A program made the position numbers and the translations under genes. The notes under the pieces are model-generated. The model made no database searches, was not told the DNA's origin, and was given only the letters and a program-made list of their open reading frames with translations. DNA of 46,653 bases from Candidatus Aminicenantota bacterium (GTDB lineage: Bacteria > Acidobacteriota > Aminicenantia > Aminicenantales > Aminicenantaceae). Where the stretch lies: the NCBI GenBank assembly GCA_011772475.1, contig WVZK01000015.1, forward strand, positions 16,875 through 63,527, given 5' to 3'. Below, piece after piece: positions 27,846 through 39,857 of this stretch; the first letter of the stretch is position 1, and every line of letters begins with the position of its first letter.

Positions 27846-28844
27846 TTAAAGATCCAGCAATCCGAATCTTTTCAAAACCCTCAGAACCGCAAAGGTCACC
27901 CAGAGATGGTCTTCAATGGTAGATTTCTTGTTTCTAGCTTCCCAATAACCCTGTTTGTTTTGTTTTTCCAGTATCCAGTTTAATCCTTTTTGGATATTTT
28001 CATTCTCCACAGGGAATCCGATCTTGGAGAGAGAATCAAGGCTGCTTAAAATATCAGTGGCCCAGAAAGGATAAGCAAGTTCTTCCCAGAAAGATGGAAG
28101 CCATCGATCATTATACTTATCTGCCTTAAAAAATCTGCTCATCAGTAGCTCTCCTGCTTTCCAGGCCTCTTTACTCTTGCTCCATGTTGGAGATGCTGCT
28201 AAAGCACGCAGTACCATTCCTGTAACAAGATGGGAAAAAGGTTGAGATTTATCAGGCTTAATAGGCTCGAGCTTTAATTGGGCTTCATAATTATATCGAT
28301 TCTTAAGCTGTTCTTGGTCTATAGTCCGATAAGGGATGACCCAGCCTCCATCGTCTTGCCTGTTATTTATAATCCACCGGAATCCTTTTTGGATCTTTTC
28401 ATCTTTATAAAGGCCAAAAAAACACAAGATTTCAAGAGACAGTGCATGATATGTGGGTGCATACTCATTAAGATAAGCTCCGCGAAAATCTCCTGCTGCG
28501 GATTGTGTAGACAGCACGAATTTTATCGCCTTTTTAATCCCTTCTTCCTTCGGAGAGCAACCGAAGTTATATAACTTGAGCATGTTTTTTAGCGTGTCAA
28601 CGATGTAATAGGTCTTTTCCCAGCGAGGGTGACCTTCGTATTTTCTTTTACACCACCCACCGTTTGGCTTTTGGCTTTTCAAGATCCTTATACGGGAAGC
28701 AAATTTTTGTAGATTTTTGAATTCCCTATCCACTGGAACTTCAAGAATGTCCTTTTTTAGCCAGTAAAGGATGGGTAGGTTCCCTCTTGCCAGGAGGAAC
28801 TCGATGGCTCTGTTAGGATTAACCTTCATCTGGGATTTTAGCAA
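27846..28844 (-). CDS. Squalene-cyclase/prenyltransferase-fold (alpha/alpha barrel) protein
   Basis: A 332-residue soluble protein built of repeats with the QxxDGGW-type pattern: SQKPNGGWCKR, STQSAAGDFRGAY, NNRQDDGGWVIP and EKQNKQGYWEAR. These repeats form the alpha/alpha toroid of terpene cyclases and prenyltransferases. The catalytic DXDD of squalene-hopene cyclases is not seen, and the protein is half their length, so it is probably not a triterpene cyclase; the real substrate is unknown. The frame opens at TTG 28844 (12 bases after the cupin stop), with ATG 28829 as an alternative. It is third in a likely operon after the deacylase and cupin genes. Confidence 0.85.
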   Translation of the reverse strand: MLKSQMKVNPNRAIEFLLARGNLPILYWLKKDILEVPVDREFKNLQKFASRIRILKSQKPNGGWCKRKYEGHPRWEKTYYIVDTLKNMLKLYNFGCSPKEEGIKKAIKFVLSTQSAAGDFRGAYLNEYAPTYHALSLEILCFFGLYKDEKIQKGFRWIINNRQDDGGWVIPYRTIDQEQLKNRYNYEAQLKLEPIKPDKSQPFSHLVTGMVLRALAASPTWSKSKEAWKAGELLMSRFFKADKYNDRWLPSFWEELAYPFWATDILSSLDSLSKIGFPVENENIQKGLNWILEKQNKQGYWEARNKKSTIEDHLWVTFAVLRVLKRFGLLDL

Positions 28845-28856
28845 AATAATCTAATC

Positions 28857-29210
28857 TCAGGTCACCCTTTCTGGATTAATGATGATACACAAAAATTCAA
28901 AAGGTTCTTGGAAAGGATTTTTAAACTGATGATTTTTGTTTTTTTCTATTAAAAGACTTTGTCCCTGGTAAACAGTGATGTCCTCTCCGTTTTCGTCGAC
29001 AACCACTCCCCTGCCCTTTTCTATTTTGACAACATGCTCATGCTCATGGCTATGGAAAGGAGTATGACCTTTGGGAAAGATTTTAAAATGCCTCATGACT
29101 ATTTTAGAAGAGCCATCGTCTGGTCCTATGAGGATTTTTCTTGTGACGTTCTTTATTCCTTCTTCCAAAACTGCGCCTTCAGGGACATCATCGTTTTTTT
29201 TAATTATCAT
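28857..29210 (-). CDS. Cupin domain protein
   Basis: A 117-residue single-domain cupin. Motif 1 is HTPFHSHEHEHVVKIEKGRG, with the metal-binding His residues and Glu; motif 2 is LLIEKNKNHQFKNP. Such proteins bind a metal and act as small isomerases, dioxygenases or sensors. The exact reaction cannot be assigned. It starts 11 bases after the deacylase stop in the same operon, which suggests a linked role in modified amino-acid breakdown (inference). Confidence 0.9.
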   Translation of the reverse strand: MIIKKNDDVPEGAVLEEGIKNVTRKILIGPDDGSSKIVMRHFKIFPKGHTPFHSHEHEHVVKIEKGRGVVVDENGEDITVYQGQSLLIEKNKNHQFKNPFQEPFEFLCIIINPERVT

Positions 29211-29221
29211 TATACATCTCT

Positions 29222-30826
29222 CTAATCTTTGCCATATCCGTAAAGAACCATTCCCGGGAGACCGCCGTTGTGCTTTCCTTGTTCTACAACCAACTCTCCG
29301 TTAACAATGACATACATAAGTCCCTGACTGTACTGATGCGGATCGGGATATGTGGCCTTATCCGTAAACAAGTTCTTGTCGAAAATAGTCAAATCTGCAT
29401 ACAGACCTTCTTTAATTATACCTCTTTTGTTAAGCCTCAATGTTTGAGCTGGCAAAGATGTCATCTTTCTCACGGCTTCTTCCAGGGGAATAATTCCACG
29501 TTCTCTTACATAATGGGCGATGACTCTGGGAAAAGTGCCATAGTTTCTCGGATGGGGAGTGCCCTCGCCTTTAATCCGAATCCCACCATCAGAGGCGTGC
29601 ATGTTGTACGGAAGACCCATTAAGCCTTCAACATCCTTTTCATCCATCTGGAAAAAAACGCCTGAAGCTCCTCCGTTTTTCTCGATTTCAACGATTAAAT
29701 CAGCAGCGTTATCTGTAGTTGATTTCTTGCCCAAAGAAAGAAGGATTTCCTGGAGGTTTTTGCCTTCATACTCAGGAAATTTCTCTGAGCGGGCAATATA
29801 AATGGTCTCTGGCTTGTTAATTCCCTTTGTTGAATTAAGTCTTCGTTTGATGACGAAAGATTTTATTTTTTGAAAAGCTTCTTTATCTTCTAATCTTTCC
29901 AGGAATTTTTCCTTCCCACCTTCGAAAGCCCAGGAAGGCAAGCTGCTGGTAAACCCAGAACTTGTGGCAGTATAAGGATATTGGTCGAGGGTGACTTCAA
30001 CACCTCTTTTGCGGGCTTCTTCAACCGGTCCTGTTATCCTTTCCAGCTGAAACCAGACGGCATCATCGGCTAGTTTTATATGAGCAATTTGGACAGGAAT
30101 CTTGTTCCTTTCGCCTATTTCGATTGCTTCCTCAATGGCTTCAGTTATATGACTCCCTTGGTCTCGAAGATGAGTAGCATAGATTCCTCCGTAGCGGGAA
30201 ACAACAGAAGCAAGCTGGACTAATTCCTCTGTCTCGGAATATATGCCTGGAAGATAAGAAAGTCCTGTTGAAAATCCTAGGGCTCCGGCTTTCATCTCCT
30301 CATCAACCAGAGCCTTCATCTTTTCCATCTCTTCTTCTGTAGGTGCCTCCATCTTAAAGCTCATAACTTTTCTTCTAATTGTGTTATGTCCGATAAGGCA
30401 GCCAAAATTTACAGATACTCCTTGATCTTCGATTTTTTTAAAATGCTCTTTCAAGGGAAAAGGATGACCTCCACAGTTTCCACCAATAACAGTTGTTACA
30501 CCCTGATAAATGTAGTTATCGACTGTTGGAACCTCTGCGATTTTGCGGTCACAATGGGTATGGATATCGATAAATCCTGGGCTGACTATTAAGTTCGAAG
30601 CATCAATGCTTTTCTTTGCATGGCTTTCATTAATTAAACCAATCTTGACGATCTTTTTATTCTTCAGGCCAATGTCGCTCTTAAACCATGGATTTCCCGT
30701 GCCATCTATTATGATGCCGTTTTTTATCACAAGATCATAAGGCTTTTCCAGGAAAGCGCAGTTCGAGAGGCATAAAAGAAAAACCAGCCCAATGAAGAAG
30801 TGTAAAAATTTGTAATCCCCTCTCAT
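29222..30826 (-). CDS. N-acyl-D-amino-acid deacylase, lipoprotein
   Basis: A 534-residue amidohydrolase-fold enzyme of the D-aminoacylase family, which hydrolyses N-acyl-D-amino acids. The N-terminus has a lipobox (VFLLCLSNC, with acylated Cys at about 23), so it should be anchored to a membrane on the outside of the cytoplasm. Then come GIIIDGTGNPWFKSDIG, the metal motif FIDIHTHCDRK, GNCGGHPFP, GALGFSTGLSYLPG, YATHLRDQG, PVQIAHIKLAD and ASDGGIR, all typical. AAGGAG precedes ATG 30826. It leads an operon with the cupin and cyclase-fold genes and has a strong divergent promoter. Confidence 0.94.
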   Translation of the reverse strand: MRGDYKFLHFFIGLVFLLCLSNCAFLEKPYDLVIKNGIIIDGTGNPWFKSDIGLKNKKIVKIGLINESHAKKSIDASNLIVSPGFIDIHTHCDRKIAEVPTVDNYIYQGVTTVIGGNCGGHPFPLKEHFKKIEDQGVSVNFGCLIGHNTIRRKVMSFKMEAPTEEEMEKMKALVDEEMKAGALGFSTGLSYLPGIYSETEELVQLASVVSRYGGIYATHLRDQGSHITEAIEEAIEIGERNKIPVQIAHIKLADDAVWFQLERITGPVEEARKRGVEVTLDQYPYTATSSGFTSSLPSWAFEGGKEKFLERLEDKEAFQKIKSFVIKRRLNSTKGINKPETIYIARSEKFPEYEGKNLQEILLSLGKKSTTDNAADLIVEIEKNGGASGVFFQMDEKDVEGLMGLPYNMHASDGGIRIKGEGTPHPRNYGTFPRVIAHYVRERGIIPLEEAVRKMTSLPAQTLRLNKRGIIKEGLYADLTIFDKNLFTDKATYPDPHQYSQGLMYVIVNGELVVEQGKHNGGLPGMVLYGYGKD

Positions 30827-31003: not shown

Positions 31004-32164
31004 ATGGACAAACTTATCTTTCTGGATAATGGCGCAACATCCTTCCCCAAGCCTGAGGAAGTCTATACTTTTATGGATAGTTTCTACAGGAATTTTGGAG
31101 TAAATCCTGGACGTTCAGGATATGATCTGTGTATGGAAACCGGAGAACTAGTGGATAGTACCCGAGAAATGCTGACGGGATTTTTTAACGGAAAAGACCC
31201 GAGTAGACTTTGTTTTTCTTATAACTCTACTGACGCCTTAAACCTCGTTATAAACGGAATCCTTAAAGGGGGCGATCATGCGATAACAACCACGATTGAA
31301 CACAATTCGGTGTTAAGGCCGCTTTATCACTTGTATAAATACAACGGCGTTGAAGTCGATTATATTCCTTTTGATAGAAAGGGATTTGTCGATCCTGATG
31401 AGTTCCCAAAGAAATTCAAGAAAAACACTAAACTTGTCATTGTTAACCATGCCTCCAACGTGATTGGGACCATTCAGCCTATAAAAGAGATCGGGAAACA
31501 CTGCAGGGGGAATGGAATACCCTTTGCCATTGATGCTTCGCAATCGGCAGGAAAAATCCCTATTGATATCGAGGAGATGAATGTGGACGTAGTTGTTTTC
31601 ACCGGCCACAAGTCTCTCCTTGGTCCAACGGGGATTGGCGGCCTTTATGTCAGAGAAGGAATTGAGATAAGGCATACCCGAGCAGGAGGGACGGGAGTTC
31701 GTTCTGCAGTCCGCACGCATCTGGAAGAGTATCCCTACAGGCTCGAATACGGCACCTTGAATGTTCTTGGAGTGGCAGGACTTCACGCAGGGTTGAAATG
31801 GATAGAAAAGAAAGGATTGAATAATATTCATGAGCAAGAAATGAAACTAACAGCCATGCTAAGGGATGGGCTTAATGATGTCGAAGATGTGAACCTGTAC
31901 TGCCAGGATGATTTGACCGATCATATAAGCATTTTTCTGTTTAATATTGATGGTTTAGAAGCCCTGAATGCAGCCACTATTCTTGATGTGGACTACAACA
32001 TAGCCTGCCGATCAGGCCTTCATTGTGCCCCGCTCGCCCATGAGCAACTAGGGACGGATAAAATTCGGGGAGCAGTTAGATTCGGCATTGGCCCTTTTAA
32101 TACTGAAGCCCAGATAAGAATAGCGGTAGGGGCAGTAAGAGAGACTGCAAAATCAAGAAAATAA
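31004..32164 (+). CDS. Cysteine desulfurase family (class V) aminotransferase
   Basis: A 386-residue PLP enzyme resembling the SufS/CsdA-like family. It shows LDNGATSFPKPEEV at the start, FSYNSTDALNLVINGIL, TIEHNSVLRP, FAIDASQSAGK and the PLP lysine in VVFTGHKSLLGPTGIG. The catalytic-type cysteine is in ACRSGLHCAPLAH near the C-terminus. It could release sulfur from cysteine as a persulfide; other class V reactions (selenocysteine lyase, other lyases) are not excluded. GGAGG stands before ATG 31004. It converges on the cysteine synthase of the dsrC operon. Confidence 0.92.
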   Translation: MDKLIFLDNGATSFPKPEEVYTFMDSFYRNFGVNPGRSGYDLCMETGELVDSTREMLTGFFNGKDPSRLCFSYNSTDALNLVINGILKGGDHAITTTIEHNSVLRPLYHLYKYNGVEVDYIPFDRKGFVDPDEFPKKFKKNTKLVIVNHASNVIGTIQPIKEIGKHCRGNGIPFAIDASQSAGKIPIDIEEMNVDVVVFTGHKSLLGPTGIGGLYVREGIEIRHTRAGGTGVRSAVRTHLEEYPYRLEYGTLNVLGVAGLHAGLKWIEKKGLNNIHEQEMKLTAMLRDGLNDVEDVNLYCQDDLTDHISIFLFNIDGLEALNAATILDVDYNIACRSGLHCAPLAHEQLGTDKIRGAVRFGIGPFNTEAQIRIAVGAVRETAKSRK

Positions 32165-32165
32165 T

Positions 32166-32212
32166 AAGGCAAAGAAAAAATACTGTTTCTGGTTTTTCCT
32201 CTTGCTTTTTGT
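32166..32212 (+). terminator. Terminator-like imperfect hairpin after the desulfurase-like gene
   Basis: An imperfect GCAAAGAAAAA / TTTTTCCTCTTGC stem is followed by a T-rich stretch (TTTTTG), in the gap between convergent genes. Weak. Confidence 0.3.
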
Positions 32213-32250
32213 GGGGAATTAGCTTTTTATAATTAAGAACAACCTCTTAG

Positions 32251-33309
32251 CTATTCCTCATAGCAAGGTTCAAGGACACAGCATCTAGCTGCTCCTTTCT
32301 TGCATTCCTCGCGCCTCTCTGGTCTTTCTAACGTGCAGCAGTGGATGGTGCAGACTTCAGGACTGTGATGGAAGAGTTCGGTGCTTAAATACTTCATTCC
32401 TGAGTCAGGAATGACTGTTACGATAGTTTTTTCCTCCCGAAGTTCTCTGGCTACCTTAAGGCTGGCAAACGTGTTCGCCCCTGCAGAGTATCCTGCGAAA
32501 ATGCCTTCGAGGCGGGCTAGGCGGCAAGCGGTCGCTTTTGCCTCTATGTCCGATACTTTTATTATTCCGTCGCAATCTTCGTGCTGGTAAAGATCAGGAA
32601 TGAATCCTTCGCCTATCCCCTGGATTCTGTGGTAGCCAGGGCATTCTCCAGATATAACAGCTGAATCGGCGGGTTCAACCACATATATTTTTGTGCTTGG
32701 ATTTTTCTCCTTTAGGCCCTTGCTTACTCCCATAGCGGTCCCAGAAGTCCCTACTCCGGCGATAAAGATATCTATTTTGCCGTTTGTTGCGTCCCAGATC
32801 TCCTCTGAGGTTGTAATCTGGTGAGCAAGCGTATTAGCAGGATTAGAAAATTGATTGGGCATGAAATGGTTTGGTTTTGAGGCCAGCTCCTCTGCCTTGG
32901 CCAAAGTGGCTTCCACATCTTCCTTGGTGAAAGTTCCTGGTTCAGCTTTACTATGGCTGCCTACTAGGACGATTTCAGCCCCAAAAGCAGCCATCATGTC
33001 TTTTCGCTCCTGGCTCATTTGTTCAGGCATAACAGCAATCATGCGATAGCCTTTCAAAGCGCAGACCAGGGCAAGGCTTGTCCCTGTGTTCCCGCTTGTC
33101 GGTTCCACGATGCTATCCCCTCTTTTTATTATCCCCTGTCGCTCAGACTCTTCTATCATGGAGAGGGCAATCCTGTCTTTAACACTTCCGCTCGGATTGT
33201 AATATTCCAGCTTTGCCAATATCGTCGCCTTAATGTCCTTTTTTATTCTGTTAAGGCGGACTAAGGGGGTATGCCCTATCAAATCTAATACGCTATCATA
33301 TATTTTCAT
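32251..33309 (-). CDS. cysK: Cysteine synthase (CysK/CBS family) with Cys-rich C-terminal tail
   Basis: A 352-residue PLP enzyme of the O-acetylserine sulfhydrylase family. It shows IGHTPLVRL, the PLP lysine K44 in NPSGSVKDRIA, VEPTSGNTGTSLALV, the phosphate loop GVGTSGTAMGV and GIFAGYSAGAN. The core ends around residue 315. It then has a tail (319-352) with seven cysteines (320, 324, 325, 336, 343, 344, 349), including two CC pairs, which ordinary CysK lacks. The tail could bind a metal or Fe-S cluster or carry sulfur. AAGGAG precedes the ATG. It is the last gene of the dsrC operon, 17 bases after the DsrK-like gene. Confidence 0.93.
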   Translation of the reverse strand: MKIYDSVLDLIGHTPLVRLNRIKKDIKATILAKLEYYNPSGSVKDRIALSMIEESERQGIIKRGDSIVEPTSGNTGTSLALVCALKGYRMIAVMPEQMSQERKDMMAAFGAEIVLVGSHSKAEPGTFTKEDVEATLAKAEELASKPNHFMPNQFSNPANTLAHQITTSEEIWDATNGKIDIFIAGVGTSGTAMGVSKGLKEKNPSTKIYVVEPADSAVISGECPGYHRIQGIGEGFIPDLYQHEDCDGIIKVSDIEAKATACRLARLEGIFAGYSAGANTFASLKVARELREEKTIVTVIPDSGMKYLSTELFHHSPEVCTIHCCTLERPERREECKKGAARCCVLEPCYEE

Positions 33310-33326
33310 GGAAAATGCTCCTTATT

Positions 33327-34664
33327 TCAGTTGATTATCAGAGCAACTGCTGCGATCTCGCAGATAGTCATAGCCTCGACTCCCAGCTTATAGTGCTTGT
33401 TAAGTTCCATAAGTTGATCAATACAATTGTGACAGGGGGCTGCGACGATCTTGGCGCCGGTTTTTCTGATTTGATCTGCTTTTATTTGGCCTACCTGAAG
33501 TCGCTTCTGGCTGAAACGGGTCATAGCCAGTTGACCGCCTCCTCCCCCGCAACAAAAATTCTTTTCCCTGTTGGGCTTCATCTCGATAAAATGAGAAACA
33601 GCATGTTTAAGTGTAAATCTCTGCTCTTCCACTATTCCTCCAAGGCGTACCTGATTGCAGGGATCATGCAGAGTGACAGGCTCAGAGTTGCGGGATGGGT
33701 CGAGTTTAATTCGACCCTGCCGGATATAGTCTGCAACAATCTCAAGGATACTCTTGACTTCAAAATCATGCTTCTTGTTTAACCATTCTGGGGCTTCCCA
33801 TCTGGCAGAGCTAAAGCCATGGCCACATTCTGCGAGAACAAGCGTCTTACAGCCCAATTTTTCCATAGACTGGACAAGCCTTCTTGACATTGTTGCAGCA
33901 GCTTCGTCATTCCCTGCGAAATAGCCATAATTGGTAACATCGTAGTTATCACTGGACAAGGTCCAGCTCTCCCCTGCTGCATAAAGTATTTTGCCTACGG
34001 CTAGAATAGAAAGGGGAAAAAACATGGGCTCTCGAGGATTGATTGCGTAAAAAATCCTGGCTCCTTTTTTATCCATCGGAAGCCTGGCCTGTTTGTCCCC
34101 TACTTCATCCTGGAGCTCTTCTTCTAACCATTCTACTGTCTCAATCCAGTCCTTCCTCGGGATGCCCATGTTATTCCCTTTCTCCAGAGCAGTATCGACC
34201 GTAGACTGGAGGCCAGGAGGAACAACGCCGATTGACGCCAGGGCACTTCTTGCTTTCCTTATAAGAAGATGAATATTTATGCCCAGGGAACAATTCAAGG
34301 AACATCTGCCGCACATCGTGCACCTTCCAAAAAGGGAGTCAACCCATTCTTTCACCATTGCCTGATTGAATTCTTTCGCCCCTGTCCAGCCGGGAATGTT
34401 TTTCCCGACGAAGCTAAAGTATTTTTTAAATATTCCTTGGGCCAGGTTTAATTTATACGCGGGCAGAGATTGAACATCCTTATCGGCTAAAAAATAATGA
34501 CAGGAATCAGCACATAAGCCGCAATGGACGCAAGAATTGAGGTAAGCGGCATACTCTTGGCTCAGCTTATCTCGAAAAACCTGAAGAGCCTTCACCAGGT
34601 CTTCTGGCTTTACTTGTTTTATCTTTTCTTCCAAGAGGTCCTTTTTCAAAGCTTTCTCACTCAC
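33327..34664 (-). CDS. DsrK/HdrD-like Fe-S subunit
   Basis: A 445-residue cytoplasmic Fe-S protein of the HdrD/DsrK family. Two [4Fe-4S] ferredoxin motifs lie at Cys45/48/51/55 and Cys115/118/121/125. The C-terminal part has the catalytic-cluster type cysteines: ECGHGFSSARW (Cys280), HDPCNQVRLGG (Cys336), CCGGGGGQLA (Cys371/372) and PCHNC (Cys411/414). Such clusters reduce disulfides; DsrK is thought to act on the DsrC trisulfide/disulfide. It is shorter than typical DsrK (about 540). The start is GTG 34664 with a weak Shine-Dalgarno. Neighbours are DsrM-like and DsrC upstream. Confidence 0.9.
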   Translation of the reverse strand: MSEKALKKDLLEEKIKQVKPEDLVKALQVFRDKLSQEYAAYLNSCVHCGLCADSCHYFLADKDVQSLPAYKLNLAQGIFKKYFSFVGKNIPGWTGAKEFNQAMVKEWVDSLFGRCTMCGRCSLNCSLGINIHLLIRKARSALASIGVVPPGLQSTVDTALEKGNNMGIPRKDWIETVEWLEEELQDEVGDKQARLPMDKKGARIFYAINPREPMFFPLSILAVGKILYAAGESWTLSSDNYDVTNYGYFAGNDEAAATMSRRLVQSMEKLGCKTLVLAECGHGFSSARWEAPEWLNKKHDFEVKSILEIVADYIRQGRIKLDPSRNSEPVTLHDPCNQVRLGGIVEEQRFTLKHAVSHFIEMKPNREKNFCCGGGGGQLAMTRFSQKRLQVGQIKADQIRKTGAKIVAAPCHNCIDQLMELNKHYKLGVEAMTICEIAAVALIIN

Positions 34665-34712
34665 GGAATTGGAATTTGATACTCACCATGTTTAGGTTTC
34701 AATATTCATACC

Positions 34713-35342
34713 TTACGTTTTATGTGCTTTTGGAGGGAGAACACCCCTCCTGCCATAAAAAAGCCCAAAGAGAATTCTGGTGTAAAAAAAGAAGAAACAG
34801 TGGCGAATTTTTCCTACTGGGATATATAAAAACATCACCATAGCCAGCATGAAATATAGTGGAGTTACCCTTGCAGAATAAGTATGGACAAGGGCGGAGA
34901 TCAAGAAGAGGTCTACAATGATGTTTGCCGCGAAATCGTCCGGACAACTTATTCTTCTTATATGAGGTAATAAGATTCTTTTTAAAAGGAGAATAAGGCC
35001 GCCCATTGATCCCAGAATTAACAGAAGCCGCAGAATAGAAATAGAAAGAACGGATAATTCTAAGGAAAAAATGAGGGCAAGAAGATAGAATAAAGATGTA
35101 AATACGCCAGCATGATAAAAAATTCCAGCAAAGTACGAGGGAAGGTGCTTGCCTGAGCTTTCTTTCTCCCAGGGCAACAATCCTCGTCCGAAAGCATAAA
35201 AAATTCCCTTTTTTGCATTACATCGAGGCTTTGCATAAAGAGGCTTTTTACCGAAGGAGAAGGTCTTCAGAACAAGGAAGGAAAGAGCTAGAAAAGAAAA
35301 AAGAAAAGAGACGATGATTCCAAATCTTAATAAAGAGAGCAT
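34713..35342 (-). CDS. DsrM/NarI-like membrane cytochrome b subunit
   Basis: A 209-residue membrane protein with about five transmembrane segments (near 6-28, 70-95, 98-121, 139-156 and 160-178). Histidines in or at helices, His77 (IFYHAGVF), His153 (ALVHTYSARVTP) and His181 (GKIRHCF), are candidate heme b ligands as in NarI and DsrM. It would pass electrons between the quinone pool and the DsrK-like partner downstream. Compared with DsrM (about 330 residues) it has only the core domain. AGGAGG precedes ATG 35342. Assignment rests on the gene order and helix/His pattern, not on strong motifs. Confidence 0.75.
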   Translation of the reverse strand: MLSLLRFGIIVSFLFSFLALSFLVLKTFSFGKKPLYAKPRCNAKKGIFYAFGRGLLPWEKESSGKHLPSYFAGIFYHAGVFTSLFYLLALIFSLELSVLSISILRLLLILGSMGGLILLLKRILLPHIRRISCPDDFAANIIVDLFLISALVHTYSARVTPLYFMLAMVMFLYIPVGKIRHCFFFFYTRILFGLFYGRRGVLPPKAHKT

Positions 35343-35396
35343 TGAGGTTTTTCCCTCCTAAAGACAGATAACAGAGAAAGCATAGAATTCTTCTTC

Positions 35397-35714
35397 CTAA
35401 ACGCAGCCATCGGGTTTGGGAAGACCGGCGACCTTGCAGGCTCCTCTTGCAGGGCCCGAAGGGAAGAGTTCAAAGATGTATCTTAACTGAAAACCTGTAT
35501 TTTTACAGAGCTTTCGAACCATAGGGGCCAATTTCTTTTCAAGATAATAGTTTCGGATATAGTTAATTACCGCCCAATGGTCATCCGTCAAATTTTCTAT
35601 CCCTTCTTCTTTGGCTATAAGCTCGGCTACTTCCTTGGCCCAATCCTCATGATTAGCTAAAAATCCTTCTTCATTGACTTCTATCTTTTTCCCTTTTACC
35701 TCGATAAAAGGCAT
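35397..35714 (-). CDS. dsrC: DsrC/TusE family sulfur carrier protein
   Basis: A 105-residue sulfur relay protein. It has the family pattern VNEEGFLANHEDWAKEVAEL, DDHWAVINYIRNYY and GFQLRYIFELFPSGPARGACK. The C-terminal arm has both redox cysteines, Cys93 and the penultimate Cys104, 11 residues apart (CKVAGLPKPDGCV). This is the true DsrC pattern; TusE-like members often lack the first. DsrC carries sulfur as a trisulfide and returns it to the membrane Dsr complex. No dsrAB is in the window. It leads an operon with DsrM-like, DsrK-like and cysK genes, with a TATAAT promoter upstream. Confidence 0.96.
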   Translation of the reverse strand: MPFIEVKGKKIEVNEEGFLANHEDWAKEVAELIAKEEGIENLTDDHWAVINYIRNYYLEKKLAPMVRKLCKNTGFQLRYIFELFPSGPARGACKVAGLPKPDGCV

Positions 35715-35751: not shown

Positions 35752-35781
35752 ATTATAGCATATCAAAGATGCATGTTTTAA
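35752..35781 (-). promoter_or_regulatory. Promoter of the dsrC operon
   Basis: Minus-strand TTAAAA (35776-35781), 18-base spacer and perfect TATAAT (35752-35757), about 38 bases upstream of the dsrC ATG. Confidence 0.45.
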
Positions 35782-35885
35782 ATTATTTCTTAAAAGCGGG
35801 AGGAAGCAATTTAAACTTCACTTTTATTATTAGCTCGTTACGGCTATACTAATTGTTCGGATTTAAGAAAGGAGGATTGATAAAT

Positions 35886-36632
35886 ATGAAAAAACATCTT
35901 AATTGGATGTTATCCATTAGCTTGCTTCTTATAGTCGCCTCAGCTCTAACCTACACTATTCATTATTTCATTTTTCGGGACGCGCATCACATCTTCATCT
36001 ATATGATAGGAGATATTGGATTTCTTTTTCTTGATGTGCTTCTTGTAATCTTTCTCATCGAGAGGTTGCTTTCTAGAAGAGAAAAACGGTCTATCATGAA
36101 CAAGCTAAATATGGTTATCGGGACCTTTTTAAGCGAAGTCGGGCTGGAGCTGCTCAGGAAGTTTTCCAATTTTGTCGTTAACTCTCAAAATTTAGAGCGA
36201 CGACTGGAAATGAACACAAACTGGGAAAAGAAAGATTTTAAAAAAGCAATGGCTGCTGTCCAGAAATTTCCTTTCGAGATTAAAATAGATAAAGCTAGCC
36301 TCTCTGAAATTCGGAAATTCCTTACCAGTAAACGTTCTTTTTTGATGCGCCTCCTTGAAAATCCCAACCTGTTTGAGCACGAACGTTTTACTGATTTGCT
36401 CTGGGCTGTTTTCCATTTGACAGAAGAGCTGGTATTTAGAGGAGATCTATTGGAAGACCTTCCAGATTCTGATTATGAGCATTTAAACATAGACCTTCAG
36501 CGTGCATATTCGCAGCTTACAATTGAATGGCTATCTTACACTTCCCATCTAAAAGAGAGCTATCCTTTTCTGTATTCGCTCGCAGCCAGAGTCAATCCGA
36601 TGAATCCTCAAGCCTCGCCAGTTGTAAGCTGA
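35886..36632 (+). CDS. Two-helix membrane protein with a cytoplasmic helical domain
   Basis: About 248 residues. Two hydrophobic helices at the N-terminus (LNWMLSISLLLIVASALTY and IYMIGDIGFLFLDVLLVIF) are followed by a basic stop-transfer patch (RRLLSRREKRS) and a long, mostly helical soluble part with many charged residues. I do not recognise the family. The frame opens at 35853, but GGAGG at 35871-35875 serves ATG 35886 (or a TTG at 35877); I choose the ATG. It is divergent from the dsrC operon, sharing the 170-bp upstream gap, where a TATACT -10 is seen at 35845-35850 without a clear -35. Confidence 0.75.
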   Translation: MKKHLNWMLSISLLLIVASALTYTIHYFIFRDAHHIFIYMIGDIGFLFLDVLLVIFLIERLLSRREKRSIMNKLNMVIGTFLSEVGLELLRKFSNFVVNSQNLERRLEMNTNWEKKDFKKAMAAVQKFPFEIKIDKASLSEIRKFLTSKRSFLMRLLENPNLFEHERFTDLLWAVFHLTEELVFRGDLLEDLPDSDYEHLNIDLQRAYSQLTIEWLSYTSHLKESYPFLYSLAARVNPMNPQASPVVS

Positions 36633-36733
36633 AATTGAATGAATTTGGCTCATCGTTTTTGTTATTGAAGAAAAGGATTGCATCTTTTAAAATAATTCGA
36701 TATGTCCGATAAAAATAATAAAAGGAGGACGGT

Positions 36734-37789
36734 ATGGTTGAACGCCGATTAAGAGTTTTTTTCGTGGGCTTATTTGTCTTTTTGGGTTACTTTCTTCTGT
36801 TGTATTCCCAGGCAGAACTTTCTGTCAAAGACATTATAGAGAAAAACATCCAGGCAGCAGGAGGACACGAAGCGCTATCAAAGGTTAAGAATTATTCTTT
36901 CAAGCATGGTCTTAGAACCTATTATATGGCAGCTTCTGGACTTATGAAGCAAACAGAAGGTAAGGAACCTGTCATCACCGAGATCATACTCGTGGAAGAG
37001 GATAAGGTAAGAAGAAACTGCTTCAATAATATCACTGAATTGGCAGGATTGTTGAAATCTACTTACCAGTGTTTAGCCAAATTAAGAAGTGGATTATTCA
37101 CCCTCGCTAATTTTAAGGGTCAGCTTGAGTTTAAAGGACAGAAGAAGTTTGGACCTGAAAACCTTTATATGGTTACGACTGACATAGGGAACTTAAAAGT
37201 TGAATTTTATCTTGACTCTGATGAATTCACCCTCAAGAGGTTGGTCTTTAAAGGTTTTGACGAGTCTCGAGGCAGATACGCAGTTAACCACGACTTTGGG
37301 CCGTATCAACAGATAGACGGAATCATGATTCCCTCTTCCTGGTATAGCTCCCAGGTAGGAACCCGAGGCAGCAATTTTGGAGTGTCTGATGTGAAAATAA
37401 ATCCCTCCTTGGATAAAGACTTCTTCTCCAGTATCGATGTGAATGTCGGTGATGTGAAGATCGCTGAGGGAGCACTTAGCGGAAGTATCGTGGAATCCAG
37501 TTTCAGGCGAAACATGCTTCTGATATCAACCAACTGGACAGATAAATGCATAGAGGGAGCTGGATTTAAATCAAAAGATAAATTGATTCTTCAGATGGGC
37601 GATAGGGAGATTGAAATAGATTTTTATGAATCATTCCCGCCAAGAGAAACAATTGGACCTGGATCAAAATTCATGGTGCCGAACCGCAGTAGTAAAAATT
37701 ATATCATTTACCTTATATCTCCCGAGTTCAAACAACTCTTGGAAGAACTAGAACCCCTACTGCCAATCCGAGTGAAAAAAATTAAATGA
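36734..37789 (+). CDS. Exported protein of unknown function, LolA-fold-like N-terminal domain
   Basis: 351 residues with a clear signal peptide (VFFVGLFVFLGYFLLLYSQA). The mature protein begins VKDIIEKNIQAAGGHEALSKVKNY, a start common to periplasmic proteins related to outer membrane lipoprotein-sorting LolA. It then shows repeated beta-rich segments (FKGFDESRGRY, VNHDFGPYQQIDGIMIP). The C-terminal GAGFKSKDKLILQMGDREIE looks like a PDZ-type edge (GxKxxDxI) but this is uncertain. AAAGGAGG precedes the ATG. A terminator-type palindrome follows. No pathway can be assigned. Confidence 0.7.
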   Translation: MVERRLRVFFVGLFVFLGYFLLLYSQAELSVKDIIEKNIQAAGGHEALSKVKNYSFKHGLRTYYMAASGLMKQTEGKEPVITEIILVEEDKVRRNCFNNITELAGLLKSTYQCLAKLRSGLFTLANFKGQLEFKGQKKFGPENLYMVTTDIGNLKVEFYLDSDEFTLKRLVFKGFDESRGRYAVNHDFGPYQQIDGIMIPSSWYSSQVGTRGSNFGVSDVKINPSLDKDFFSSIDVNVGDVKIAEGALSGSIVESSFRRNMLLISTNWTDKCIEGAGFKSKDKLILQMGDREIEIDFYESFPPRETIGPGSKFMVPNRSSKNYIIYLISPEFKQLLEELEPLLPIRVKKIK

Positions 37790-37810
37790 AAAAAGGAGAA
37801 ATAACGTCGC

Positions 37811-37843
37811 GTAGGGGCTTGATTTATCAAGCCCGCATTTTTT
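37811..37843 (+). terminator. Palindromic repeat copy 2, acting as a terminator
   Basis: GGGCTTGAT, two bases, ATCAAGCCC (37815-37834) followed by GCATTTTTT. It is a variant of the GGGTTTGAT palindrome family, in opposite orientation to the other copies, and the T-run makes it a good Rho-independent terminator for the upstream gene. Confidence 0.65.
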
Positions 37844-37872
37844 AGTAAAATTCTAAAACAAAGGAGAAAATT

Positions 37873-39057
37873 ATGGCGAATGTAAGTCGACGCAATTTTT
37901 TTAAAACTGTAACTTCTGGAGTGTTAGGCATCAGTCTTGCAAAAAACTTAAAGCCAAGTTCATTGAACGCAGGGGGTACCCAAAGCGAGTCCTCTCCGCT
38001 TAAGATTCAGAAATATAATAATCTGGGAAAGACGGGAATTAAAGTCCCAGATGTTAGCTGTGGCGCAATATCTTTCTTTGAGCCGAATGTTTTAAGGTAT
38101 GCTTATGAATTAGGAGTGACTTATTTTGACACAGCAGAAGGATATATGCGTACACAGAGTGAGACGTTTATCGGACAAGCTCTTAAGGAAATAAGAGACA
38201 AGATAACAATTACGACCAAACATCCTTATTCTTCACGAATGCAAATAACAAAAGAAAATGTCATTAAAAGGTTGGAGGCGAGTCTAAAGCGAATGCAGAC
38301 AGATTATATCGATATTGCCATGGTTCATCAGGCTAATGACTTGGCCATTCTCAAAAATGAAGAAATCCAGGCTGCCTATGCTCAAATGAAAGAAGCAGGA
38401 AAAATTCGGTTCACGGGCTTTTCTACCCACAATCCGACACTCACTTTGAAGCAGGCGCTCGACAATGATTTTGCTCAGGTTATTCTTTTCATCTACAATC
38501 ACATGGAAGGCAAAGAGATCGAGCCTCTCATCGAGCAGGTTCACCAACAAGGGATCGGAACAGTTGCCATGAAGGTCTTTGCCGGCGGAAAGCACGGTAA
38601 TCTGAAATCTCTTATCTCCCAGGAAGTTAGCTATCCTCAGGCGGCAATTCGCTGGGTCATGAGCAATCCTAACATTGACTGCTGCATCCCCACCATGAGC
38701 AGCTATTCCCATGTCGAGGAATATGTGTCTGCATCCGGAAAGCCATTAACCAGGGCTGATTTAAAAATGATTGCCGCCTATCAGCGCCAGGCTAATAATC
38801 AATACTGCAGGGTTAGCTGTCAGGGCTGTGTATCTTCTTGTCCGGATAGTGTTGCTGTTAACGATGTCCTCCGTTACAAAATGTATTTTGAGGACTATAG
38901 GATGGAAAGTGAGGCGATGCGCTATTATGCTGAGATGAGAGAGAGTAAGAAGCCTCTTAATTGCAGCAACTGCTCTGGATACTGTGAAAAAACCTGCCCA
39001 TTCGGCCTTAAGGTAAAAAGCAAGCTTGTTCATGCCCACGAAATTTTATCTGGGTGA
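37873..39057 (+). CDS. Tat-exported aldo/keto reductase with Fe-S C-terminus
   Basis: A 394-residue protein. The Tat signal is SRRNFFKTVTSGVLGISLA. The aldo/keto reductase barrel shows NNLGKTGIKVPDVSCGA, Asp/Tyr in YFDTAEGYMRTQS, Lys in ITTKHPYSS and His in IAMVHQAN, the usual catalytic tetrad. The C-terminus has cysteine groups CRVSCQGCVSSCP and CSNCSGYCEKTCPFG that look like [4Fe-4S] ligands. Family members are found in many anaerobes with unknown substrate. AAAGGAG precedes the ATG. A fully folded Fe-S cofactor protein agrees with Tat export. Confidence 0.94.
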   Translation: MANVSRRNFFKTVTSGVLGISLAKNLKPSSLNAGGTQSESSPLKIQKYNNLGKTGIKVPDVSCGAISFFEPNVLRYAYELGVTYFDTAEGYMRTQSETFIGQALKEIRDKITITTKHPYSSRMQITKENVIKRLEASLKRMQTDYIDIAMVHQANDLAILKNEEIQAAYAQMKEAGKIRFTGFSTHNPTLTLKQALDNDFAQVILFIYNHMEGKEIEPLIEQVHQQGIGTVAMKVFAGGKHGNLKSLISQEVSYPQAAIRWVMSNPNIDCCIPTMSSYSHVEEYVSASGKPLTRADLKMIAAYQRQANNQYCRVSCQGCVSSCPDSVAVNDVLRYKMYFEDYRMESEAMRYYAEMRESKKPLNCSNCSGYCEKTCPFGLKVKSKLVHAHEILSG

Positions 39058-39122
39058 TAAATAGAGCAGGTTTCAAAATTTGTGAGATAATAAATAAGAA
39101 ATTCTGATTAAGGAGGGGAATC

Positions 39123-39857
39123 ATGCCTAAATATTCTCTTTTTATCATCGGTTTTGTGTTCATTTTTATGGCAGTAGTGGCAGCTCATGGGGAGTTTGAA
39201 GCGGATATTATCACTACAACCAAGGGAGATCTGAAGATCATGTTCATAGGCCATGGAACATTGATGTTCACCTTTGATGGCAAAGTTATTCATGTGGACC
39301 CTGTCAGCAGAGAGGCTGATTATTCGAAGCTTCCTAAAGCAGATCTAATTCTTGTAACCCATGAGCACGGCGATCACCTCGATACTAAGGCTATTGACAT
39401 TATCCGCCAAGAAAAGACTGACTTAATCCTGACGGAAAAATGCGCGGGAAAAGCTAAAGGTGGCATTATAATGAAAAACGGTGATGTTAAAACCGTTCAG
39501 GGATTTAAGATCGAAGCTGTCCCTGCCTACAACATCCTCCATAAGCGAGGAAGTGGCGCTCCTTTCCATCCTAAAGGAATGGGCAATGGCTACGTGATTG
39601 CCTTTGCTGACAAGAGAATTTATGTGGCCGGAGATACAGAGAATACGACAGAGATGAAAGCGTTGAAGAACATCGATATCGCTTTCTTACCCATGAATCT
39701 TCCTTATACAATGACTCCGGAAATGGTGGCTGATGCAGCAAAAGCTTTTAAGCCTAGGATACTCTATCCCTATCACTACGGAAATACAGATACCTCAAGG
39801 ATTGTAGAGCTACTGAAAGATGTCAAAGAGATTGAGGTCCGCATAAGAAAAATGTGA
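39123..39857 (+). CDS. Exported MBL-fold metallo-hydrolase (UlaG/UPF0173-like)
   Basis: 244 residues with a signal peptide (LFIIGFVFIFMAVVAAHG) and a metallo-beta-lactamase fold: IMFIGHGTLMFTFDGKVIHVDP, then the metal motif LVTHEHGDHLDTKAID, a later VYVAGDTENT (metal Asp) and YPYHYGN near the C-terminus. This pattern is the UPF0173/UlaG-like group. The substrate is unknown. GGAGGGG precedes the ATG. It is on the same strand as the aldo/keto reductase 65 bases upstream. Confidence 0.93.
   Translation: MPKYSLFIIGFVFIFMAVVAAHGEFEADIITTTKGDLKIMFIGHGTLMFTFDGKVIHVDPVSREADYSKLPKADLILVTHEHGDHLDTKAIDIIRQEKTDLILTEKCAGKAKGGIIMKNGDVKTVQGFKIEAVPAYNILHKRGSGAPFHPKGMGNGYVIAFADKRIYVAGDTENTTEMKALKNIDIAFLPMNLPYTMTPEMVADAAKAFKPRILYPYHYGNTDTSRIVELLKDVKEIEVRIRKM

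Follow-up and report, generated by a model that had tools for sequence, protein, structure and literature searches.

Described systems closest to the locus

In the Dsr pathway, DsrAB makes the trisulfide of DsrC, which is then reduced by DsrMK, or by DsrMKJOP (PMC10504309). Here, we describe a locus in which a cysteine desulfurase (Csd) may take the place of DsrAB. It is located in a stretch of 46,653 nucleotides, hereafter the window, from a Candidatus Aminicenantota bacterium of the order Aminicenantales (assembly GCA_011772475.1, contig WVZK01000015.1), and encodes DsrC, a membrane subunit (M), an iron-sulfur protein (K), a cysteine synthase (CysK), and Csd. The locus resembles the Dsr pathway (DsrABC with DsrMK or DsrMKJOP) in its two-cysteine DsrC and in its two-subunit assembly of a putative membrane cytochrome b and a CCG iron-sulfur protein, and the same M/K family is also present in a dsrABC-dsrMK-cobB operon (locus L112, see below). 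In contrast, the window genome exhibits neither DsrAB nor any siroheme reductase, with a cysteine desulfurase instead, and its K scores under the NCBIfam cut-off for DsrK.

Other systems share parts of this organization. The Hmc and Tmc complexes (HmcE/HmcF, TmcC/TmcB) give the top NCBIfam scores of K and M, but these scores are far under the equivalog cut-offs, no other Hmc or Tmc subunit was recognised at the locus, and the partners are DsrC and Csd. Mycobacterial EtfD (PDB 9ojn) and the HdrDE-type reductases also combine a NarI-like membrane part with ferredoxin-like and CCG domains. EtfD is a single chain that works with ETF, whereas the system of the window comprises two chains, M and K, along with DsrC. 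In the TusE/TusBCD and DsrEFH-DsrC relays, a DsrC-family protein takes sulfur from another protein, as we propose for the window. Nevertheless, the DsrC of the window keeps Cys93, is accompanied by a membrane reductase, and is encoded close to a desulfurase rather than to TusBCD or DsrEFH. Csd itself resembles the TIGR01977 (EF2568) family, of which it keeps the pyridoxal phosphate (PLP) lysine and the catalytic cysteine, but the published genomic context of this family is selenium metabolism, whereas that of Csd is DsrC-M-K.

A proposed relay centred on DsrC

We estimate at roughly one half the probability that the locus encodes a sulfur and electron relay centred on DsrC, with the cysteine desulfurase replacing DsrAB. 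In this relay, Csd, with its PLP and Cys341, would remove the sulfur from cysteine, leaving alanine, and would hand the persulfide to the penultimate residue of DsrC, Cys104. Attack of Cys93 on this persulfide would release H2S and form a DsrC disulfide, which would be reduced by the CCG iron-sulfur site of K, with electrons drawn from a carrier in the membrane (menaquinol in hosts able to make it) and passed on through the cytochrome b of M. In sum, cysteine + 2 e- + 2 H+ would give alanine + H2S, which would be an electron sink for fermentative anaerobes. Every chemical step is drawn by analogy from known families; that Csd hands persulfide to DsrC, which way the electrons run, where they come from, and that the system acts as an electron sink are what we infer. 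The genes are the following, with positions in the window:

dsrC, 35397-35714, minus strand: PF04358/TIGR03342 protein of 105 aa with the redox residues Cys93 and Cys104 near its C-terminus (GACKVAGLPKPDGCV)
M, 34713-35342, minus strand: membrane subunit of 209 aa, NarI/DsrM/HmcE-like putative cytochrome b with invariant His66, His77, and His181
K, 33327-34664, minus strand: HmcF/TmcB/DsrK/HdrD-like protein of 445 aa with two [4Fe-4S] motifs and one CCG (non-cubane cluster) domain
cysK, 32251-33309, minus strand: cysteine synthase A whose C-terminal tail is Cys-rich; accessory and not conserved at the locus
csd, 31004-32164, plus strand: member of the TIGR01977 cysteine desulfurase/selenocysteine lyase family with catalytic Cys341 and PLP Lys203, convergent in the window

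The first four genes form a closely spaced minus-strand operon, on which csd converges. All these open reading frames (ORFs) were found where the first-pass annotation of the window had placed them, including the two-cysteine DsrC at the head of the operon.

Conservation of csd next to dsrC, M, and K

Judged by gene neighbourhoods, the conserved partner of dsrC-M-K is csd, not cysK. Most K-bearing genomes of the order keep dsrC, M, K, and csd together, and in some genomes of families f2, f4, and f6, dsrC adjoins csd with M-K nearby in a different arrangement. In two genomes (G027 and G033), another M/K pair, 40% identical in K, fills the slot between dsrC and cysK-csd. As the pair is displaced there while dsrC, cysK, and csd remain, the slot appears to need an M/K pair and not one particular orthologue.

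The K alignment was also scanned against 84,980 species genomes, which yielded 80 K loci in Acidobacteriota (including Aminicenantes), Bacteroidota, Planctomycetota, Zixibacteria, Krumholzi-/Eisenbacteria, Gemmatimonadota, Chloroflexota, Bacillota, and others. At 50 of these loci, csd adjoins the dsrC-M-K genes, being co-directional at 32 and convergent at 18, and the gap between K and csd is under 50 bp at many loci. The dsrC-M-K-csd module was found in Aminicenantes, Holophagae, Bacteroidales, Phycisphaerae, Zixibacteria, and Eisenbacteria. Most Bacteroidales and Holophagae have csd directly downstream of dsrC-M-K and co-directional with it. The hosts of the operon include Bacteroidales bacterium CF, whose genome (CP006772) is closed, and a Butyricimonas relative. 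That csd stays adjacent in either orientation and in phyla far apart suggests that it is functionally linked to dsrC-M-K. Among open PMC papers, none was found that combines DsrC, cysteine desulfurase, and Bacteroidales. A previous study analysed organisms with the DsrABCMK set and mentioned Chloroflexi DsrM in organisms without DsrAB (PMC10504309), and dsrC has been described as common in sediment metagenome-assembled genomes (MAGs), where it was interpreted as a sulfur carrier (PMC12740246).

With regard to cysK, only about five of 30 genomes of the order (the window genome, G019, G023, G027, and G033) have it between K and csd, and it is mostly absent from loci outside the order. The dsrC-M-K-cysK order, whose conservation the first-pass annotation proposed to check, is thus rarely kept, an outcome that it had named beforehand as weakening its relay. 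In that relay, reduction of the DsrC persulfide would yield sulfide, which the neighbouring CysK would turn into cysteine. The presence of cysK at the same place in the window and in some four other genomes of the order, with CysK proteins that have a Cys-rich tail in common, is consistent with such an assimilation. Nevertheless, about 25 of the 30 loci of the order have no cysK, nor do most loci in other lineages, and an assimilation with cysteine as the sulfur source is a futile loop, so we give it very little credence. CysK was rejected as a core relay partner, as it is rarely at the locus. In the window, it could be an optional add-on able to re-fix some sulfide, although re-fixing sulfur derived from cysteine would be a largely futile loop. 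What stands of the earlier proposal is a sulfur relay without DsrAB, with a two-subunit membrane reductase and a DsrC that is probably charged by Csd, as suggested by the cross-phylum link to csd and by the lack of sulfite reductase. The identity of CysK as a cysteine synthase is supported by its TIGR01139 score (364.7, cut-off 350.95). Its C-terminal ~35 aa form the Cys-rich tail (CTIHCCTLERPERREECKKGAARCCVLEPCYEE), which is also observed in the CysK of the related loci L042, L046, L060, and L061 and possibly binds metal.

The conservation of csd also bears on a different role for DsrC, which might do no more than shuttle electrons, as a soluble dithiol/disulfide, between M-K and a cytoplasmic complex of the HdrABC/Flx type, with Csd repairing or priming the iron-sulfur clusters of K. 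DsrC of D. vulgaris is reported to interact with FlxABCD-HdrABC (PMC10504309), and HdrB-like genes, all under the curated cut-off, were found in 41/60 genomes of the order, including the window genome. However, operon-bearing genomes of high completeness exhibit no HdrB match (G043, 97% complete, G047, G041, G037, and G059), and such a shuttle leaves csd as a specific conserved neighbour unexplained. We consider this explanation unlikely; a dependence on HdrB was rejected, as it is not universal among the operon hosts.

Sulfite reductase and the separation of csd from dsrAB

The genomes were searched with PF01077, the nitrite/sulfite reductase domain of DsrAB, CysI, AsrC, and related enzymes, which was detected in 11 of 14 control genomes. 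No match was found in the window genome (87.6% complete, 204 contigs, 3.14 Mb) or in any of the 60 genomes examined across the order (the window genome and 59 relatives from seven families). As 29 of these are at least 90% complete, MAG incompleteness does not account for this absence. Another six operon hosts, among them the closed genome CP006772, likewise have no match to this domain. The absence of dsrAB, initially noted for the window, thus extends to the whole genome and to the order. No DsrJOP-like gene was found among the window genes scanned, dsrJOP not having been searched genome-wide.

In a whole-genome search for dsrAB in 56 K-locus genomes (these six and 50 more), four turned out to carry a DsrA-DsrB pair (the hosts of L097, L112, L119, and L146), and in each of them the K locus is without csd. 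This corresponds to 0/40 genomes with csd at the locus versus 4/16 without it (Fisher p=0.005) or, without the loci cut by contig ends, to 0/40 versus 4/11 (p=0.001), both values being uncorrected for shared ancestry. Three other matches were not retained as dsrAB: that of the L100 genome is an assimilatory CysI beside CysH, that of the L128 genome is one AsrC-like ORF under the equivalog cut-off, and that of the L085 genome is under the PF01077 cut-off.

In L112 (Firmicutes UBA3576), dsrA (577 bits, cut-off 393), dsrB (540 bits, cut-off 341), dsrC, M, K, and a cobB-like gene follow each other in a row, with no csd. The M/K family of the window thus also works with DsrC in an operon for sulfite reduction. 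A K tree, built by a quick method with support from the Shimodaira-Hasegawa-like approximate likelihood ratio test (SH-aLRT) only, places a 78-row clade with the csd-linked proteins (SH-aLRT 99) as sister to an eight-row group with the dsrAB genomes (SH-aLRT 90), the displaced G027/G033 pairs being outside both groups. The simplest reading of these sequences is a shared DsrC-reducing M/K pair with two alternative sulfur donors. Dissimilatory sulfur metabolism is commonly annotated from dsrC and dsrMK-like marker genes, and such annotations would mislead in csd-linked lineages without sulfite reductase.

Catalytic residues of DsrC and Csd

DsrC is well above the cut-offs of PF04358 (134.7 bits versus 24.9, E=2e-39) and TIGR03342 (124 versus 53.5), and matches solved DsrC/DsvC chains over its full length. 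It exhibits cysteines at positions 70, 93, and 104 of 105 aa, with Cys93 and Cys104 11 positions apart and Cys104 penultimate. Both redox cysteines are kept in 31/31 aligned rows from the order and in 59/60 from the cross-phylum loci, and by its sequence the protein is a true two-cysteine DsrC. The sole DsrC without Cys93 is that of L074 (6962-7318), which exhibits GAAKIAG; csd is also absent from this locus, and a natural loss or a change of role is possible.

Csd, which had been noted as a convergent cysteine-desulfurase-like gene, scores above the TIGR01977 cut-off (434 versus 377 bits), and its Lys203 and Cys341 are kept in 76/76 aligned proteins. As the TIGR01977 family has been linked to selD and proposed as a selenocysteine lyase (PMC2276186), and as the window genome has selD, Csd might act on selenocysteine; alternatively, Csd and DsrC might form a TusE-like sulfur relay for tRNA thiolation. 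Both roles are very unlikely. The operon is present without a true selD match in the single-contig genome G016 and in G015, G017, G030, G040, and G046. DsrC is also under the cut-off of the TusE equivalog NF008562 (86 bits versus 191) and keeps Cys93, of which TusE has no known equivalent, and a membrane reductase is not needed for tRNA thiolation. A selenium system was rejected, with true selD matches in 23/60 genomes of the order but none in many operon hosts.

The membrane pair

K exhibits two CxxCxxCxxxC clusters (C45-C55 and C115-C125) and the CCG domain cysteines C336, C371/C372, and C411/C414. All the motif cysteines are invariant in 12 orthologues, and the PF02754 and Fer4 profiles match. 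The best fold match of the K model in the PDB is EtfD of Mycobacterium (9ojn; E 6e-12, template modelling (TM) score 0.69), with further matches to LutA-LutB and HdrB subunits. The NCBIfam scores decrease from HmcF (299 bits, cut-off 750) to TmcB (281, cut-off 735) and DsrK NF045796 (257, cut-off 400). A strict assignment of K to DsrK, HmcF, or TmcB was rejected, as every score is under its equivalog cut-off. The K of the genuine dsr operon of L112 reaches just 280 bits against the DsrK cut-off of 400.

For M, neither a Pfam scan nor a sequence search against the PDB gave a match, and the NCBIfam matches are HmcE/TmcC. Its AlphaFold2 model (mean predicted local distance difference test (pLDDT) score of 93.6) has five to six membrane helices (DSSP), and its best PDB matches are all NarGHI (probability 1.00, but with a weak E of 0.01-0.07 and a TM score of ~0.5), so M is NarI-like by predicted fold. 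His66, His77, and His181 are invariant in 27 homologues and may bind haem, the spacing of His66 and His77 being presumably like that of two haem ligands on one NarI helix.

The earlier description of M as a five-helix NarI/DsrM-like protein thus agrees with the predicted fold and less with the families matched. Similarly, the two [4Fe-4S] motifs and the CCG domain of a DsrK/HdrD-like protein are present in K, but HmcF and TmcB score higher than DsrK. Because K prefers HmcF/TmcB, with all scores under the cut-offs, and M matches HmcE/TmcC, the label DsrMK is an analogy of fold and operon and not a strict family assignment.

Electron donor and direction of the proposed relay

The midpoint potential of cysteine/alanine + H2S is about -105 mV (E0'), as computed from formation energies. 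As this is close to menaquinone, the proposed reduction is feasible at low sulfide. Energetics so near equilibrium allow either sign, and an oxidative direction can be envisaged, in which a thiol or sulfide charges DsrC, M-K feeds electrons to the membrane pool, and Csd handles sulfane sulfur. Known organisms run DsrC and DsrMK both ways (PMC10504309). However, no known sulfur-oxidation genes were recognised beside the csd loci examined. Cysteine desulfuration is also one-way in practice, and the oxidative direction seems distinctly unlikely.

In the hosts of csd-type loci outside the order, 17/31 exhibit MqnA/D and three others exhibit MenD above the cut-off, which makes menaquinol plausible as a donor in many hosts. 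One of the markers is present in 20/31 of these hosts. The earlier description of a quinol-linked enzyme is doubtful for the window organism, as neither marker was found in the 60 genomes of the order. Aminicenantes would have to scavenge a quinone, use a different carrier, or possess a pathway not yet recognised. The order encodes a NarI-like membrane protein despite this lack of either menaquinone pathway marker.

Several points weigh against the relay from Csd to DsrC and M-K. Menaquinone markers are absent from the order (MqnA/D, PF02621, 0/60; MenD, 0/60 above the cut-off) and from 11/31 of the other hosts. The substrate of Csd may not be cysteine, given the selenocysteine lyase role proposed for TIGR01977 (PMC2276186). 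In the window, csd is convergent and not co-transcribed with the operon, and the transfer from Csd to DsrC is suggested through guilt by association. The separation of dsrAB from csd is based on just four dsrAB genomes. Finally, K is found without neighbouring dsrC-M in rumen and horse Bacteroidales (L118, L125, L127, L130-L134, and L141), with dsrC and M ~7 kb from K in L118, and such stand-alone orthologues mean that K may have other roles.

If the relay exists, DsrC-DsrMK can probably work with interchangeable sulfur donors, and an anaerobic route from cysteine to H2S is tied to membrane electron transfer, with relevance to sediment sulfur cycling and gut sulfide. A broader and more tentative proposal is a widespread, unnamed anaerobic electron sink, a "cysteine respiration" in which Csd loads DsrC and an HdrD/NarI-type membrane pair reduces it, yielding alanine and H2S and possibly conserving energy, in fermenters including sediment Aminicenantes and gut and rumen Bacteroidales. 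Sulfide would then have a biological origin that has gone unrecognised, independent of sulfite reductase and of known cysteine desulfhydrases.

Promoter, flanking genes, and variant loci

One candidate regulatory element was found upstream of the operon:

sigma-70-like promoter candidate, 35752-35781, minus strand: TTAAAA-18-TATAAT with TG before the -10, ~38 bp upstream of the dsrC ATG

It matches the consensus at 10/12 positions; as the regional number of matches is within the shuffle range, it is suggestive only. The closest K is 87% identical and is located on WVXO01000005.1 (Candidatus Aminicenantes). In the single-contig relative G016, the locus is present in two copies (L032 and L037), and one dsrC frame is apparently broken, with just the last 36 codons matching in one frame. 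In the Chloroflexi loci L119, L120, and L139, genes for an Fe-S protein, an NrfD-like protein, and a CxxCH protein are upstream of M-K, followed by CobB/DsrN-like and HemA-like genes, and this cluster looks like another DsrMKJOP-like assembly. The flanks of the window locus (27846-30826 and 35853-39857) are also kept within the family: one comprises an amidohydrolase, a cupin, and a squalene-hopene-cyclase-like protein, and the other comprises two proteins without Pfam match, an aldo/keto reductase with Fe-S motifs, and a metallo-beta-lactamase-fold protein.

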